Positions 11,944 to 24,140 of a DNA stretch of 33,640 bases are shown here, in pieces. A model generated the notes under the pieces. That model searched no databases. It was given only the letters and a program-made list of their open reading frames with translations, and was not told where the DNA came from. The stretch comes from a virus, in IMG/VR virus record IMGVR_UViG_3300027805_000049, positions 1 to 33,640 of that record, one strand, 5' to 3'. How positions within the stretch are numbered: the stretch's first letter is position 1; the number at the start of each line of letters is the position of its first letter. The translations under genes and the position numbers were made by a program.

Positions 11944-13071
11944 TTATGCTCCGTAATACTCGACTACAAAAACAAGACCATCGCCGCCGTTACCACCAGC
12001 GCCAGAGTTAGCGCCGTTAGTGCTTGCACCACCGCCACCGCCTCCGGCACCGCGCCCGCCGTTGCCACCGTCACCGCCTGCAATAGTGCCCGCAGTGTTA
12101 CCAGATGCACCACTTGAACCCGCTGTTCCCATCGCCGCAGTTGTTGTAGTATCAATATCGAAAAGTATGTTATTTGCCACGTCGCTACCATTGTTGCCGC
12201 TACGTGTCCCTGTTGTTGTTCCACCTGATGGACCGTTGGTAAGTACGCCAATGTCATAAATACCTCCGCCACTTCCACCGCTACGTTCTACGTTTGCGCT
12301 GCTAATTCCCCCCGCACCGCCCGCACTAGCGCCGCCAATGTTGCCAGCCAAACCATTAACGCCGGAACCCCCAGAACTTGATACGCCGCTACTAGAGCCA
12401 GCAGCACCATTCAATGAAAAAGGGCCGCGAGCTGGTGTACAGAGCGAAGCACTCCCACCTGATCCACCGATTCCAGAAGTTGAACTTCCACCTGAACCAC
12501 CGGAACTTGTGCTTGTAATTACAAGAGAACCGAACGAACTTGATCCACCATTTTGGCCATTAGCCCCATTTGTATCATCGGCGGTTATAGCTCCACCATT
12601 AGCGCCGCCTGTACCTACCGTTATAGTATATGAAGCACTAGATAAAGTTGCAGATTTTATCAAACGATATGACAGCGAACCACCGCCACCCCCTCCACCA
12701 CCATAGCGATTTGTTGACGCCGCGCCTCTTCTACCACTACCCCCGCCGCCACCAGCACCTACGCACAAAACCAACACACCCCAGAAGTTAGACGCTGTGG
12801 GCTTGTTCCATGTGTCGTTGGCTGTGTATTCGCGGATGACTGGGTTCGTTCCACCACCACCAGTAGCGGTCAAGTCGGTCTCGGTTCCTGCATCGTTTTT
12901 AAAATATAGCTTCCCGTCTGTCTTTGCATAGACTATACCATAACCAGATGCAGGCGTAGATGGTGAGCTGCCTTGTTCAGACAGAACAGCCGATGCACCC
13001 GCAATCAAGCTATCACTATTCGTTAGCTCTGCGAGTGCTGCCGGTGTTGTTATGGGTCTTTTATCTGCCAT
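11944..13071 (-). CDS. Glycine-rich tail fibre / adhesin
   Basis: 375 residues. Residues 1-70 form an attachment-like module almost duplicated by the preceding small gene (EQGSSPSTPASG, then LYFKNDAGTETDL). Residues 78-100 (NPVIREYTANDTWNKP) and the strand WGVLVLCVGAGGGGG start a glycine-rich domain that fills the rest, with Gly runs separated by Ser/Thr/Asn/Ala. It ends with the strand GLVFVVEYYGA. This layout is typical of phage glycine-rich fibre-tip domains, where exposed loops between polyglycine segments contact the receptor. It lies upstream of the small fibre-associated protein. Low-complexity DNA here makes sequence errors possible. Confidence 0.75.
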   Translation of the reverse strand: MADKRPITTPAALAELTNSDSLIAGASAVLSEQGSSPSTPASGYGIVYAKTDGKLYFKNDAGTETDLTATGGGGTNPVIREYTANDTWNKPTASNFWGVLVLCVGAGGGGGSGRRGAASTNRYGGGGGGGGSLSYRLIKSATLSSASYTITVGTGGANGGAITADDTNGANGQNGGSSSFGSLVITSTSSGGSGGSSTSGIGGSGGSASLCTPARGPFSLNGAAGSSSGVSSSGGSGVNGLAGNIGGASAGGAGGISSANVERSGGSGGGIYDIGVLTNGPSGGTTTGTRSGNNGSDVANNILFDIDTTTTAAMGTAGSSGASGNTAGTIAGGDGGNGGRGAGGGGGGASTNGANSGAGGNGGDGLVFVVEYYGA

Positions 13072-20962: not shown

Positions 20963-21272
20963 ATTCTGGTTTCCTAATTACGACATTGATTTCTTGCAAC
21001 CCCTGCGTTTGGTGTATCTTTTCAGATTGTCCGAGTTGCTGTTTACCTAACCAGATAAGCATTGCAGGATTCCCAGACATAGCCAGCTCGTATTGCTTGC
21101 GTCGTATGCTTGCTTTACCTTGGCTGCGCCCTTCGTCAAGCTCTGCCTTAAATCGAGCAGTCAGCGTATCATGCGAGCATTTGACTATATCGGCTATCTC
21201 TAGATTGGTACATCCTATTGCTGCCAGCTTGCGTACTTGCTCGGGGTCAATGTCTAGCTTAGGTCTGCCCAT
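20892..21272 (-). CDS. terS: Terminase small subunit
   Basis: 126 residues. The N-terminal helix-turn-helix (DPEQVRKLAAIGCTNLEIADIVKCSHDTLTARF) and the following helix with RRKQYELAMSGNPAMLIWLGKQQLGQSEK are the typical DNA-recognition and oligomerisation parts of small terminases. It lies directly upstream of, and overlaps, the large subunit gene. The last 24 codons are shared with terL in another frame, so the C-terminal tail is constrained by that overlap. It overlaps the methyltransferase stop by 14 bases. Confidence 0.88.
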   Translation of the reverse strand: MGRPKLDIDPEQVRKLAAIGCTNLEIADIVKCSHDTLTARFKAELDEGRSQGKASIRRKQYELAMSGNPAMLIWLGKQQLGQSEKIHQTQGLQEINVVIRKPEYGQLGDSRPATSPDRLLEQSGEA

Positions 21273-22317
21273 TATCTAACCATTGTTGTATTACTGCTTT
21301 TGCGACCTGTTCTGTCATTCGTGGGGGCACTGACATGCCGATCATGTATTTACCTATTCTGTCTGTTTTAGCCACATAGTCGTCTGGGAAACTACCAAGG
21401 CGCTTCCATTCGCGGAAAGTTAATCTCCTGCAAACACCCCAATGCGTAATAACTCCATCAGTTGCCGGAAGAGTGCAAGATGGCCGTTTTGAGTCAAGCC
21501 TTATATTGTTAAAGCTAGAAACACGGTTTTCAGTTTTTTGAATAAATTTTGAATATGCTTGCCCTGGCAGTGTATTTGGCCAGCACTTTAAATCATTGGG
21601 AGCAGGGGCCGTTTCTTTTAATTCACTATCACTTAAAACTTGCAAATCCGCTGTGGCTTCGGCTACGCTTATCCACCTGTGCTGCGGTGTTAACTTAAGC
21701 GCCGGCACATCAATATCATTGCGAACAGCACAAAAGAAAACACGCTCCCTGCATTGCGGCACACCACAATCAGCGGAGTTGACAAGGAACACTTGAGGCC
21801 TGTACCCAATTTCTCTAAATCGCTGCATTATCATTTTTGTGTAGCCTTTGGCGTTGCCGATCAGCATTCCTTTGACGTTTTCGGCAATAGCAACTTTTGG
21901 CTGAAGTCGCTCAACAAGGTCCAGATAATCAAAAAACAAATCAGACAGCACTTGCTTGGCTTGTCCTTCTCTAAAATGCTTATCCTTGCCCCATGCTTTT
22001 TCACGACTTCCAGACATGCTAAATGTTGAACAAGGGGGGGAGCCATCTAATATATCTAATTGGTATAATTCTTCTGGCAATTCAACAGTTAGCAAATCTC
22101 GTATCGGACATAAAAAATAATGTTTTGGCTTTAGATTTTTTTTGTAATGCCATGCCATTTCTGGGTCTATATCATTTGCCGCTATTACATCACATCCAGC
22201 TAATTTATAGCCCATTGATGAACCGCCACCGCATGCGAAGGTCGACATAACTTTAAGTCCGTTAGAAGGTACATTGTCCAAATCGGACAATAGCCAAGCG
22301 CAGTCTGGTTTAGTCAT
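21259..22317 (-). CDS. DNA (cytosine-5) methyltransferase
   Basis: 352 residues. The C5 MTase motifs are in the usual order: motif I TFACGGGSSMGYKLAG (26-41, SAM binding), motif IV GSPPC (92-96, catalytic Cys96), motif VI AENVKG (145-150), motif VIII QCRERVF (188-194), a target-recognition region (about 215-290) and motif X IGMSVPP near the C-terminus. I place the start at the ATG at 22317, which overlaps the ParB-domain gene by eight bases (ATGACTAA); the TTG two codons earlier is less likely. It probably modifies phage DNA to evade restriction. The gene is visibly more AT-rich than its neighbours. No cognate nuclease gene is seen. Confidence 0.92.
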   Translation of the reverse strand: MTKPDCAWLLSDLDNVPSNGLKVMSTFACGGGSSMGYKLAGCDVIAANDIDPEMAWHYKKNLKPKHYFLCPIRDLLTVELPEELYQLDILDGSPPCSTFSMSGSREKAWGKDKHFREGQAKQVLSDLFFDYLDLVERLQPKVAIAENVKGMLIGNAKGYTKMIMQRFREIGYRPQVFLVNSADCGVPQCRERVFFCAVRNDIDVPALKLTPQHRWISVAEATADLQVLSDSELKETAPAPNDLKCWPNTLPGQAYSKFIQKTENRVSSFNNIRLDSKRPSCTLPATDGVITHWGVCRRLTFREWKRLGSFPDDYVAKTDRIGKYMIGMSVPPRMTEQVAKAVIQQWLDNGQT

Positions 22318-22813
22318 ATTCAAATCCGCATTTTGGACATTTGTTTTTCATTTCGTATTCATCAATATCTATTTCTTTTGCAGAAGATTCTGGCTCGTAA
22401 TCTATGTGCATTGAAGTAGCTAACTCATCCGGATTAAATCCTAGCAAAGCAACATCGAAGCCCTCCATATGGAGATCGTCCAGCTCTACCTTAAGCATCT
22501 CTTTATCCCAGTCTGCATTCATAGCCAGTTTATTATCTGCTATCACGTAAGCCCTCCGCTGCGCTTCTGTTAGGTGCTCGTGCCTTACGCATGGTACAGA
22601 TTGCAACTGCAAATGCTCGGCTGCCATCACACGACCGTGGCCTGCAATGATTGTGTTGCTTGCGTCGATCAGCACAGGATTCATAAATCCAAACTCGCGT
22701 ATGCTTGCGGCAATCTGCTTTACTTGCGCTGGAGAGTGCGTCCGGCTATTGCGAGCGTATGGTATCAGTTTCGATACTTCTACGTGTTCGATTTGTATTT
22801 TGGTGTTGTTCAT
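22310..22813 (-). CDS. ParB/Srx-type nuclease-fold protein with C-terminal Zn-knuckle-like end
   Basis: 167 residues. The N-terminal ParB domain shows VSKLIPYARNSRTHSPAQVKQIAASI, the core FGFMNPVLID, and IIAGHGRVMAAEHL (nucleotide-binding G-H-G-R, about 56-68). No helix-turn-helix follows, so it is not a partition ParB. Proteins of this type are often joined or adjacent to DNA methyltransferases, as here. The C-terminus CPKCGFEYD (about 158-167) holds only one Cys pair, so a complete zinc ribbon is absent. The AAGGAT ribosome site precedes the ATG. It overlaps the methyltransferase, and the two probably act together on DNA. Confidence 0.85.
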   Translation of the reverse strand: MNNTKIQIEHVEVSKLIPYARNSRTHSPAQVKQIAASIREFGFMNPVLIDASNTIIAGHGRVMAAEHLQLQSVPCVRHEHLTEAQRRAYVIADNKLAMNADWDKEMLKVELDDLHMEGFDVALLGFNPDELATSMHIDYEPESSAKEIDIDEYEMKNKCPKCGFEYD

Positions 22814-22818
22814 ACGAT

Positions 22819-23154
22819 TTATCCTTTCACTTCTTCCACTTCGACCGTAAAGTTAACATCCAGCAGCGATTCCATGCGCTCGACGTATTCACGGAAGTTA
22901 ACATCTGTCTGCATGTGATCTTTGATACGGCGTATGCCGTGTAAGACTGTCGTATGGTCTTTATTAAATAGCCGTGCTATCAAAGAGTTAGTCAGTCTGT
23001 ACTGTGTAAGTAGGTAATACATGAGGAGATACCGGCATTCTACGACCCAAGCATGGCGATCTTTGGCGCAGAGCTGATCCCATGTGCAGTTGTACAGTTT
23101 GCAGAACTGGTCTATTAGGTTGAGTACGGCTGGATTTTGTGTGTTTGGTTTCAA
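22819..23154 (-). CDS. Stand-alone DnaA domain IV protein
   Basis: 111 residues. The region from about 36 to 80 matches the DnaA C-terminal DNA-binding domain: CRYLLMYYLLTQYRLTNSLIARLF, then the signature KDHTTVLHGIRRIKDH (65-80). The AAA+ ATPase domain is absent. The start is a TTG at 23154; AAGGAG lies six bases upstream and no ATG fits as well. It may bind DnaA-box-like DNA at the phage origin, which lies nearby, or compete with the host DnaA. No good DnaA box (TTATNCACA) was found by eye in the intergenic gaps. Confidence 0.85.
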   Translation of the reverse strand: MKPNTQNPAVLNLIDQFCKLYNCTWDQLCAKDRHAWVVECRYLLMYYLLTQYRLTNSLIARLFNKDHTTVLHGIRRIKDHMQTDVNFREYVERMESLLDVNFTVEVEEVKG

Positions 23155-23240: not shown

Positions 23241-24140
23241 TTATTCGTTGTTTGATACTTTGGATAGGTACAAAGCTTTCATTCGCTCTATTTCAATTTC
23301 AGACGGTAGCTCCTTCTGGTACAATTCGACCACCTGCTTCGGCAATCCTGCGGGCTTTGTGCGGATCGCAATCTGCGGATCAGCTTCTTTGCCAAACTTG
23401 CCTTTGTTCCTGTTCCAGTTCCTCGCTGTTGCTTTCCAATCCTTCATAGCGTTTTTACCAACCTTCCATCCGTTGGCTGTGTAGTGGTCATAGAATTTGT
23501 TTGCCTCATCCGCTGTACTGCCTAGATGCAGGAAGTAGCCGAGGATTTCTTGTAAACTTGGGCGCGTGAATGCGCGCGAGCGCATACTCACACTATCTAT
23601 TTGTTCTATATTCTTACCTTCTTTACTTCTTAACTTCTTATGATAGTGCCCTTGCTGTGCCCTTGCTGTGCCCTCCGTGTGCCCCTCTGTCGATTGCTGT
23701 TCCTGTAAGTCGTTATAATTCAATACGATAAAGTGTGTCGCTACTGTGCCCTTTTTTGGCAAAATCATTCCGTCAACTTTAGCATGCTTTAGGAAGTTGC
23801 GTACACTCTTCTCGCTTGTGTGCGATTGCTGTGCTAGTGTTCTGATGCTTGTCAGTATTTCACCACGCTCAACTATTACCAGCTTGCCATGCACTAAAAC
23901 CTTGGATTGCTTCCAGTTTGTGCCCCATAAAATAGCCAGCCAGATGTTGGTATAGTTTGGGTTTTTATAGACCCAGTGATCTTGCATCTTGCGGTAGAGC
24001 TTGATCCATGATTTGTCCATTGTATAAATAGGAAACCCAGACGCTAACTGATCTACCTCGGTCATGATATAACCGTCCACATCCTCTCGAACATGGAAAT
24101 CTTTTAGCGTCTGGGTCGTATTGTTTTGGTTGTCTATCAT
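23241..24140 (-). CDS. Replication initiator / replisome organiser
   Basis: 299 residues in two parts. The N-terminal winged-helix part (about 43-135) has WIKLYRKMQDHWVYKNPNYT, GEILTSIRTLAQQSHTSEKS and a helix VRNFLKHA, as in phage replisome organisers. The C-terminal part (about 190-245) has LQEILGYFLHLGSTADEANKFY and NGWKVGKNAMKDWKATARNW, typical of the family end. The low-complexity linker between them (about 150-180) is encoded by an 11-bp direct-repeat array. The protein should bind that array, melt the adjacent AT-rich tract and recruit helicase. The ATG at 24140 has little Shine-Dalgarno; internal ATGs at codons 26 and 41 are alternatives. Confidence 0.85.
   Translation of the reverse strand: MIDNQNNTTQTLKDFHVREDVDGYIMTEVDQLASGFPIYTMDKSWIKLYRKMQDHWVYKNPNYTNIWLAILWGTNWKQSKVLVHGKLVIVERGEILTSIRTLAQQSHTSEKSVRNFLKHAKVDGMILPKKGTVATHFIVLNYNDLQEQQSTEGHTEGTARAQQGHYHKKLRSKEGKNIEQIDSVSMRSRAFTRPSLQEILGYFLHLGSTADEANKFYDHYTANGWKVGKNAMKDWKATARNWNRNKGKFGKEADPQIAIRTKPAGLPKQVVELYQKELPSEIEIERMKALYLSKVSNNE
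23601..23689. other. Predicted replication origin inside the initiator gene (AT-rich tract plus iterons)
   Basis: Four tandem 11-bp units beginning GTGCCC lie at 23646-23656, 23657-23667, 23668-23678 and 23679-23689. The first two are identical; the others drift in their last five bases. Directly left is a T-rich strand (about 23601-23645) with two adjacent ACTTCTTA copies (23625-23632 and 23633-23640). An 11-base period does not follow codons, so it is unlikely to exist for the protein. The layout (iterons plus an AT-rich unwinding element in the linker of the initiator gene) mirrors phage lambda ori in O. The function is inferred. Confidence 0.7.

Follow-up and report, generated by a model that had tools for sequence, protein, structure and literature searches.

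In-gene origins with the kind of N-domain considered here are already known from phage SPP1, and swaps of an origin plus a protein domain are known from plasmids. In the accessible text of one account, SPP1 oriL lies within gene 38, carries direct repeats bound by gp38 and includes an AT-rich DNA-unwinding element (DUE); oriL has been reconstituted as an origin, and the phage encodes both a helicase loader (gp39) and a helicase (gp40) of its own (PMC6316719). For plasmid pSK41, the source describes a Rep protein whose winged-helix N-domain, distinct from its C-domain, binds Rep boxes in the middle of the rep gene, and whose linker is encoded by ori; in a chimera, pPR9 compared with pSK41, a block of about 500 bp comprising the N-terminal domain (NTD) and ori has been swapped, the NTD being phage-like (PMC5703833). 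Iterons of RepA_N plasmids are, in the excerpt available, mostly semi-palindromic direct repeats that converge on an A tract (PMC7145576). Plasmid iterons are elsewhere described as direct, helix-phased and bound by monomers, and those of phage lambda as inverted repeats of about 19 bp bound by O dimers (PMC5043065, available in part).

The locus compared with these systems here comes from IMG/VR virus record IMGVR_UViG_3300027805_000049, whose positions 1 to 33,640 form the whole stretch of DNA analysed (33,640 nucleotides, hereafter the window). Very probably, one gene of this uncultured phage encodes an initiator and also contains its own origin, with the N-domain acting on iterons, an adjoining A-rich tract being opened and the C-domain recruiting a helicase.

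The initiator gene and its repeats

The features of the gene, all on the minus strand, are as follows.

23241..24140 (-): initiator gene, 299 aa, DnaD-like helicase loader phrog_2514 with an SPP1 gp38-type N-domain (profile and BLASTP)
23703..24014 (-): N-terminal winged-helix DNA-binding domain, residues about 43-146 (alignment, AlphaFold2, fold match)
23772..23813 (-): recognition helix, residues 110-123, in which K111, HMM column 71, is the presumed specificity position (AlphaFold2 secondary structure, covariation)
23746..23751 (-): isolated further GGGCAC core within the N-domain coding region, upstream of the array (pattern match)
23642..23685 (-): iteron array, four 11-bp direct units GGGCAC-N5, 44 bp (sequence, repeat search)
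23597..23641 (-): A-rich tract, candidate DNA-unwinding element with AAGAAGT-type repeats, directly after the array (composition)
23391..23573 (-): C-terminal domain, residues about 190-250 (..ANGWKVGKNAMKDWKATARNW..), presumed to recruit the helicase (AlphaFold2; common to loci L029-L080)
23643..23985 (-): exchangeable cassette of winged helix and iterons, gene nt 156-498 (block unaligned between the window and relative L021)

The gene product matches the PHROGs profile of a DnaD-like helicase loader (phrog_2514, E 9e-25, residues 42-241). Its N-domain shares 35% identity with SPP1 gp38 over residues 43-163 (BLASTP, E 7e-17), and SPP1 gene 38, the closest CHARACTERISED relative, was among 181 phage records found by tblastn. 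Judged by sequence, the closest characterised relative is SPP1 gp38, not lambda O, and because the N-domain is clearly homologous to gp38, the in-gene origin of SPP1 is the proper comparison. Pfam searches at E<=1 returned nothing convincing for the initiator and no match to RepA_N or to the lambda O family (Phage_rep_O), whose membership is not supported; a PHROG 'O-like' match is weak (E 0.018). The best distant sequence match of the N-domain is a FadR-family regulator (E 0.001), and Foldseek alone found no match for this domain at E<=0.001. VIA-align matched it to CRP-type domains (Z up to 8.4, about 64-80 residues) and to the plasmid initiator N-domains 4pql, 4pt7 and 5kbj (Z 7.1-7.3, 96-100 residues), values around 7-8 that may mean a common fold only and are by themselves no proof of kinship.

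An AlphaFold2 model built on 54 sequences is confident for an N-domain (residues 51-140, pLDDT 79-95) and a C-domain (residues 191-240, pLDDT 84-91), and between them it predicts a disordered linker (residues 150-188, pLDDT <50). The linker coincides with the array and the A-rich tract. This supports the original prediction of a DNA-binding N-domain and a separate C-domain, with the repeats located between them. Helicase recruitment by the C-domain is presumed from annotation and position.

The array itself is regular. On the plus strand GTGCCC occurs at 23646-23651, 23657-23662, 23668-23673 and 23679-23684, a spacing of exactly 11; on the coding strand the units run from 23685 to 23642 as GGGGCACACGG / AGGGCACAGCA / AGGGCACAGCA / AGGGCACTATC. 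The four tandem units foreseen from the letters alone are thus present, although the span first given for them together with the AT-rich element, 23601-23689, was too wide for the array, and 23601-23641 does belong to the A-rich tract. The pattern GGGCAC-N5-GGGCAC matches exactly, with overlaps, at three places in the whole window, every one within the array. When up to three mismatches are allowed, the genome holds 123 sites resembling AGGGCACAGCA against 112 expected, a chance-level count, and DnaA boxes at up to one mismatch number 8 against 6.8 expected, none of them near the array. No dyad was found in the 11-bp units, the best self-dyad having 4 matches.

Could the repeats instead reflect a low-complexity protein linker without DNA function? 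The stretch is predicted to be disordered, and many linkers of the family are rich in K, N and E. Against this, 11 is not a multiple of the codon and the GGGCAC hexamer is read along the array in frames 0, +2, +1 and 0 (GH, EGT, RAQ and GH), so the period belongs to the DNA, as had been proposed. The lag-11 identity of 26/33 positions was reached by only 2 of 5000 synonymous-codon shuffles of the gene (0 of 100 in a smaller run), and the four-unit array was rebuilt in none of the 5000. With the family data given below, a linker without DNA function becomes very improbable.

The 45 nt after the array contain 58% A and 76% A+T, compared with 55% A+T in the gene as a whole. Directly after the fourth unit the coding strand reads ATAAGAAGTTAAGAAGTAAAGAAGG..., and a tandem ACTTCTTA lies at about 23625-23640 (TRF row 23611-23640, period 8), in agreement with the AT-rich tract and tandem repeat expected beside the units. 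AAGAAGT recurs at 8-9 bp within 23597-23641 and is largely retained where arrays have been exchanged; the tract might be read as a single strand by the initiator or by a host protein.

From these features we infer binding, melting, helicase loading and origin activity at this gene. The winged-helix N-domain would sit on the 11-bp direct iterons, and, with one unit per helical turn, protomers would all point the same way along a single face of the DNA. The resulting nucleoprotein array would strain and then open the adjoining A-rich tract, and the C-domain would bring the replicative helicase. This helicase is probably the host's, since none was recognised among the large ORFs of the window, apart from the unscanned ORFs 709-2487, which lies beside tail genes, and 11944-13071, which is glycine-rich. 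The other large ORFs scanned are assigned to families of tape-measure, capsid, portal, terminase, methylase or phosphoesterase proteins. Placing the array in a disordered linker would let the protein tolerate the hexamer in all three reading frames, and protein and site together form a cassette of about 340 bp, exchangeable as a unit. GC skew shows no switch at the array; skew is uninformative for the origin here because the recognised genes lie on one strand.

Several further observations concern the surroundings of the gene. Just downstream, at 22819-23154 (-), the product of a small gene has a helix-turn-helix like that of DnaA domain IV (PF08299, E 4e-12), with homologues in 28/28 close relatives and in 22/52 of loci L029-L080; a phage protein that binds DnaA boxes, encoded next to an in-gene origin, might serve as a second initiator or else as a decoy. 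A cytosine-C5 methylase gene lies beside a ParB-like gene at 21259-22813, upstream of the terminase genes. The last 100 bases of the window are found again at 35-134, which would fit a genome of about 33.5 kb that is circular or terminally redundant.

The C-domain (ANGWKVGKNAMKDWKAAVRTW) is also found in distant phage loci, L029-L080, most of which have other N-domains, and several of these genes carry their own in-gene repeats of 10 or 11 bp. The presumed helicase-side module thus appears to have been paired with many DNA readers. One initiator-like gene (L067:4551-5255, +) has a perfect 12-bp array encoding QSGT repeats (lag 12, 33/33); its period, being divisible by three, departs from the 11-bp rule.

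The 11-bp period across the family and the exchange of arrays

Together, 433 sequences (loci and the window) yielded 322 ORFs with the N-domain, 294 of them with a usable linker, in 142 clusters at 70% identity. When loci fetched by iteron pattern were left out, 241 genes in 116 clusters (<70% identity) remained. In these, linker autocorrelation peaks at lag 11 (0.369, against 0.272 in the N-domain control), and harmonics appear at 22 and 33. Among non-codon lags, 11 scores best in 74/116 clusters and 22 in 14/116, and 11 is best in only 5/116 for control N-domain DNA; lag 11 exceeds synonymous shuffles at p<=0.01 in 40/116 clusters, compared with 1/116 in the control. Among non-multiples of three, periods 11 and 22 stand alone in the family, which again argues against repeats that merely follow the composition of a protein linker.

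Arrays reach the threshold in 87/116 clusters, with a median of about 5 units and a start at the end of the N-domain; the other 29 have no array at threshold or fewer than 45 nt after it. The 45 nt that follow the array are richer in A+T than the gene in 82 of the 87 (medians 78% and 62%). This bears on a different explanation, in which the initiator or some other regulator would repress its own operon by using the repeats as operators, the origin being elsewhere. The winged-helix fold does resemble that of GntR, CRP and CodY regulators, and sites within a gene could roadblock transcription. However, an A+T-richer tract lies beside the array in these 82 of 87 clusters, the sites are mid-gene and in a single orientation, and the homologous SPP1 oriL has been reconstituted as an origin, according to the available part of its description (PMC6316719). 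Operator sites are therefore an improbable explanation, and the in-gene origin is preferred.

Scans of IMG/VR by DNA pattern alone lead to the same kind of gene. Three units of GGGCAC-N5 were found in 90 stretches; among the matches listed, 43/80 have an N-domain ORF over the repeat, and the repeat lies on the coding strand of N-domain ORFs in a ratio of 74:0. For three units of AACACAC-N4, an N-domain ORF covers the repeat in 23/38, with a coding-strand ratio of 41:0. The pattern loci without such an ORF over the repeat (37/80 among the matches listed, and 15/38) look, at a stricter cut-off, like a mixture of other initiator-type linkers, chance matches and GC-rich repeats. At this cut-off, six loci (L111, L145, L170, L176, L182 and L184) have GGGCAC arrays and GH.EGT.RA linkers in ORFs outside the N-domain profile; they are possibly other initiator types that use the GGGCAC unit.

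Closer to the window, 28 related loci in IMG/VR (L001-L028) show five N-domain types, each with its own 11-bp array. The GGGCAC type is shared by the window and 13 loci, and the TAACACACG type is found in 11 loci, the GGGCGC type in L024, the TAACACGCG type in L028 (where the N-domain is incomplete) and the CCAAAAGTCC type in L021 and L022. Within one type, array differences sit in the spacers and not in the cores. The C-domain and a similar A-rich tract persist across all five types. Conservation of the repeats in relatives that keep the protein, the check suggested with the original prediction, therefore has a clear outcome: 11-bp arrays are kept, and their sequence changes with the DNA-binding domain.

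The flanks of L021 match the window at 80.0% up to gene nt 155 and at 90.6% from nt 499, where the array ends. The block between them (nt 156-498), which holds the winged helix and the array, does not align with the window. Reader and site therefore travel as one cassette of about 340 bp, for which the pPR9 and pSK41 block is a published plasmid parallel.

Recognition-helix residues and iteron bases

Arrays were registered on their shared AC core, and 109 N-domain columns were ranked after background identity had been removed by regression. The starting set was 175 genes (90% clusters), 46 of which had no array at threshold; from the 129 left, 7 ambiguous genes were dropped in a first register, or 10 without C at the core column in a second. 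The first register misplaced the AACGACA type, and a neighbour-aware register was used instead, in which 2 genes were still changing at the last round.

Column 71, which is K111 of the window at the start of the predicted recognition helix 110-123, ranked top of the 109 in each case: 0.234 against 0.064 for the next column (122 genes, first register) and 0.272 against 0.089 (119 genes, improved register). Without pattern-fetched genes the values were 0.114 against 0.067 (96 genes, first register) and 0.187 against 0.094 (95 genes, improved register). Across the family, the helix position of K111 best predicts the variable bases of the iteron. Covariation between iteron bases and a recognition-helix residue also counts against a linker without DNA function. 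Lys71 occurs with G at iteron column 5 in 24/26 genes and Thr71 with A at column 4 in 29/34, and C at column 9 is found with Glu59 in 13/22 genes, Leu59 in 1/34 and Ile59 in 0/24. Some single columns behave differently: for iteron column 6 alone, column 71 was not top in the unbiased set, and for iteron column 9, columns 62, 60 and 106 rank above 59 in the unbiased set, as do 106, 60, 62 and 52 in the full set.

Comparisons between close relatives point the same way. In the 15 closest non-overlapping pairs per contrast (first register), bases follow the residue 12:1 for K71/G, 9:0 for Q71/CA and 9:0 for E59/C, the bases not differing in the remaining pairs. Independent pairs drawn from a tree (first register) gave three supported pairs each for K71 and T71; the base follows the residue in means of 1.9 and 2.6 and goes against it in 0.0, and three pairs are too few for significance.

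A prediction for Lys and Gln was written beforehand, and 80 loci fetched by protein only provided 43 genes that were new and mutually distinct. In agreement with the prediction for Gln, arrays of the AACA/AACC type were found in 23 of the 25 Gln71 genes; one other has a GG-bearing unit that also holds AAC, and one has no array. The single Lys71 gene carries GGGC (1/1), a number too small to test Lys. In a post hoc comparison, cores are mostly GAC(A/C) in 8/9 Arg71 genes, the ninth being a tie, and in 0/24 Gln71 genes (Fisher p 6e-7, uncorrected for relatedness). Nearest Arg/Gln pairs agree in 8/9, the ninth holding the tie, and the closest pair (L483 with Arg, L472 with Gln) has 85% background identity.

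Lys or Arg with G, Gln with A and Glu with C are familiar residue-base pairings. On balance, we lean towards regarding gp38-type genes as a large natural set of DNA-binding proteins that carry their own sites, in which a simple direct-readout code can be read from sequence. With the same leaning, column 71 would pair Lys with GGG, Gln with (T/C)AAC, Arg with GAC and Thr with A at column 4, and it seems about as likely that Glu at helix-2 column 59 goes with ACC instead of ACA. The literature searched, which covered few subscription papers, held no report of a family-wide 11-bp rule or of a residue-base code for these initiators.

These results narrow the likely origin in this uncultured phage to a span of about 90 bp, and make the origin findable by sequence alone in a broad phage family, as an 11-bp periodicity inside the initiator linker. 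Because each gene holds both reader and site, hundreds of genomes become a data set on base choice by winged helices, and the same data set bears on how initiator specificity changes, through cassette exchange or single residues. Such change possibly serves escape from incompatibility with related phages or plasmids. If the code is true, specificity would shift through single residues or cassette exchange, and for uncultured phages the protein could by itself be enough to predict origin, iterons and compatibility group.

The locus compared with known in-gene origins

The original prediction had likened this gene to lambda O and its origin. The coarse layout agrees, with repeats inside the initiator gene followed by an A+T-rich stretch, and on this account a lambda O-type origin, with a dimeric initiator on dyad iterons and a P-like loader, was weighed as an alternative. 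Lambda iterons, as described in the available text (PMC5043065), are inverted repeats of about 19 bp bound by dimers, whereas those of the window are direct 11-bp units without a dyad, and the protein has no O-family Pfam match at E<=1. The analogy therefore holds for layout only, the dyad iterons and O-type protein are not supported, and an origin of the lambda type is most unlikely. The wider proposal, an in-gene array of probable initiator sites beside a candidate unwinding element with one helical turn per unit, is supported.

Geminiviruses offer a conceptual parallel, in that the specificity determinants of Rep, in the portions of the literature available, are matched to the iterons of its own genome; those iterons lie upstream of the gene, and the window's lie inside it. 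Geminivirus Rep belongs to an unrelated rolling-circle Rep family.

RepA_N plasmids resemble the window more closely. As far as the available sources describe them, they share the winged-helix N-domain, the sites central in the gene, the linker encoded by ori and the separate C-domain, and the position of the array would make the candidate origin a centrally placed one. They differ in that their iterons are mostly semi-palindromic, compared with the short asymmetric 11-bp units found here, and the initiator resembles them in fold (Z 7.1-7.3 to the three structures named above, a range that may mean a common fold only) but has no Pfam RepA_N match at E<=1.

SPP1 gp38/oriL is nearest. The two loci have in common a homologous DNA-binding N-domain, 11-bp direct units in the linker, downstream of the N-domain in the initiator gene, and an adjoining A-rich tract, which in the window is recognised as an AT-rich element by composition alone. 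In SPP1 gene 38, lag-11 units occupy the same linker position (29/33, the best lag of that gene) and are followed by an A-rich tract with a 9-bp lag. The iteron letters differ between the two (AAACGACA/AAAAGACA versus GGGCACAG), the C-domains do not align, and SPP1 has gp39 and gp40, as given in the accessible text, where no counterpart was recognised in the window. Based on these sequence comparisons, we conclude that the window contains a putative in-gene origin of an already known sort, that of SPP1 oriL, which is also like that of pSK41 and other RepA_N plasmids.
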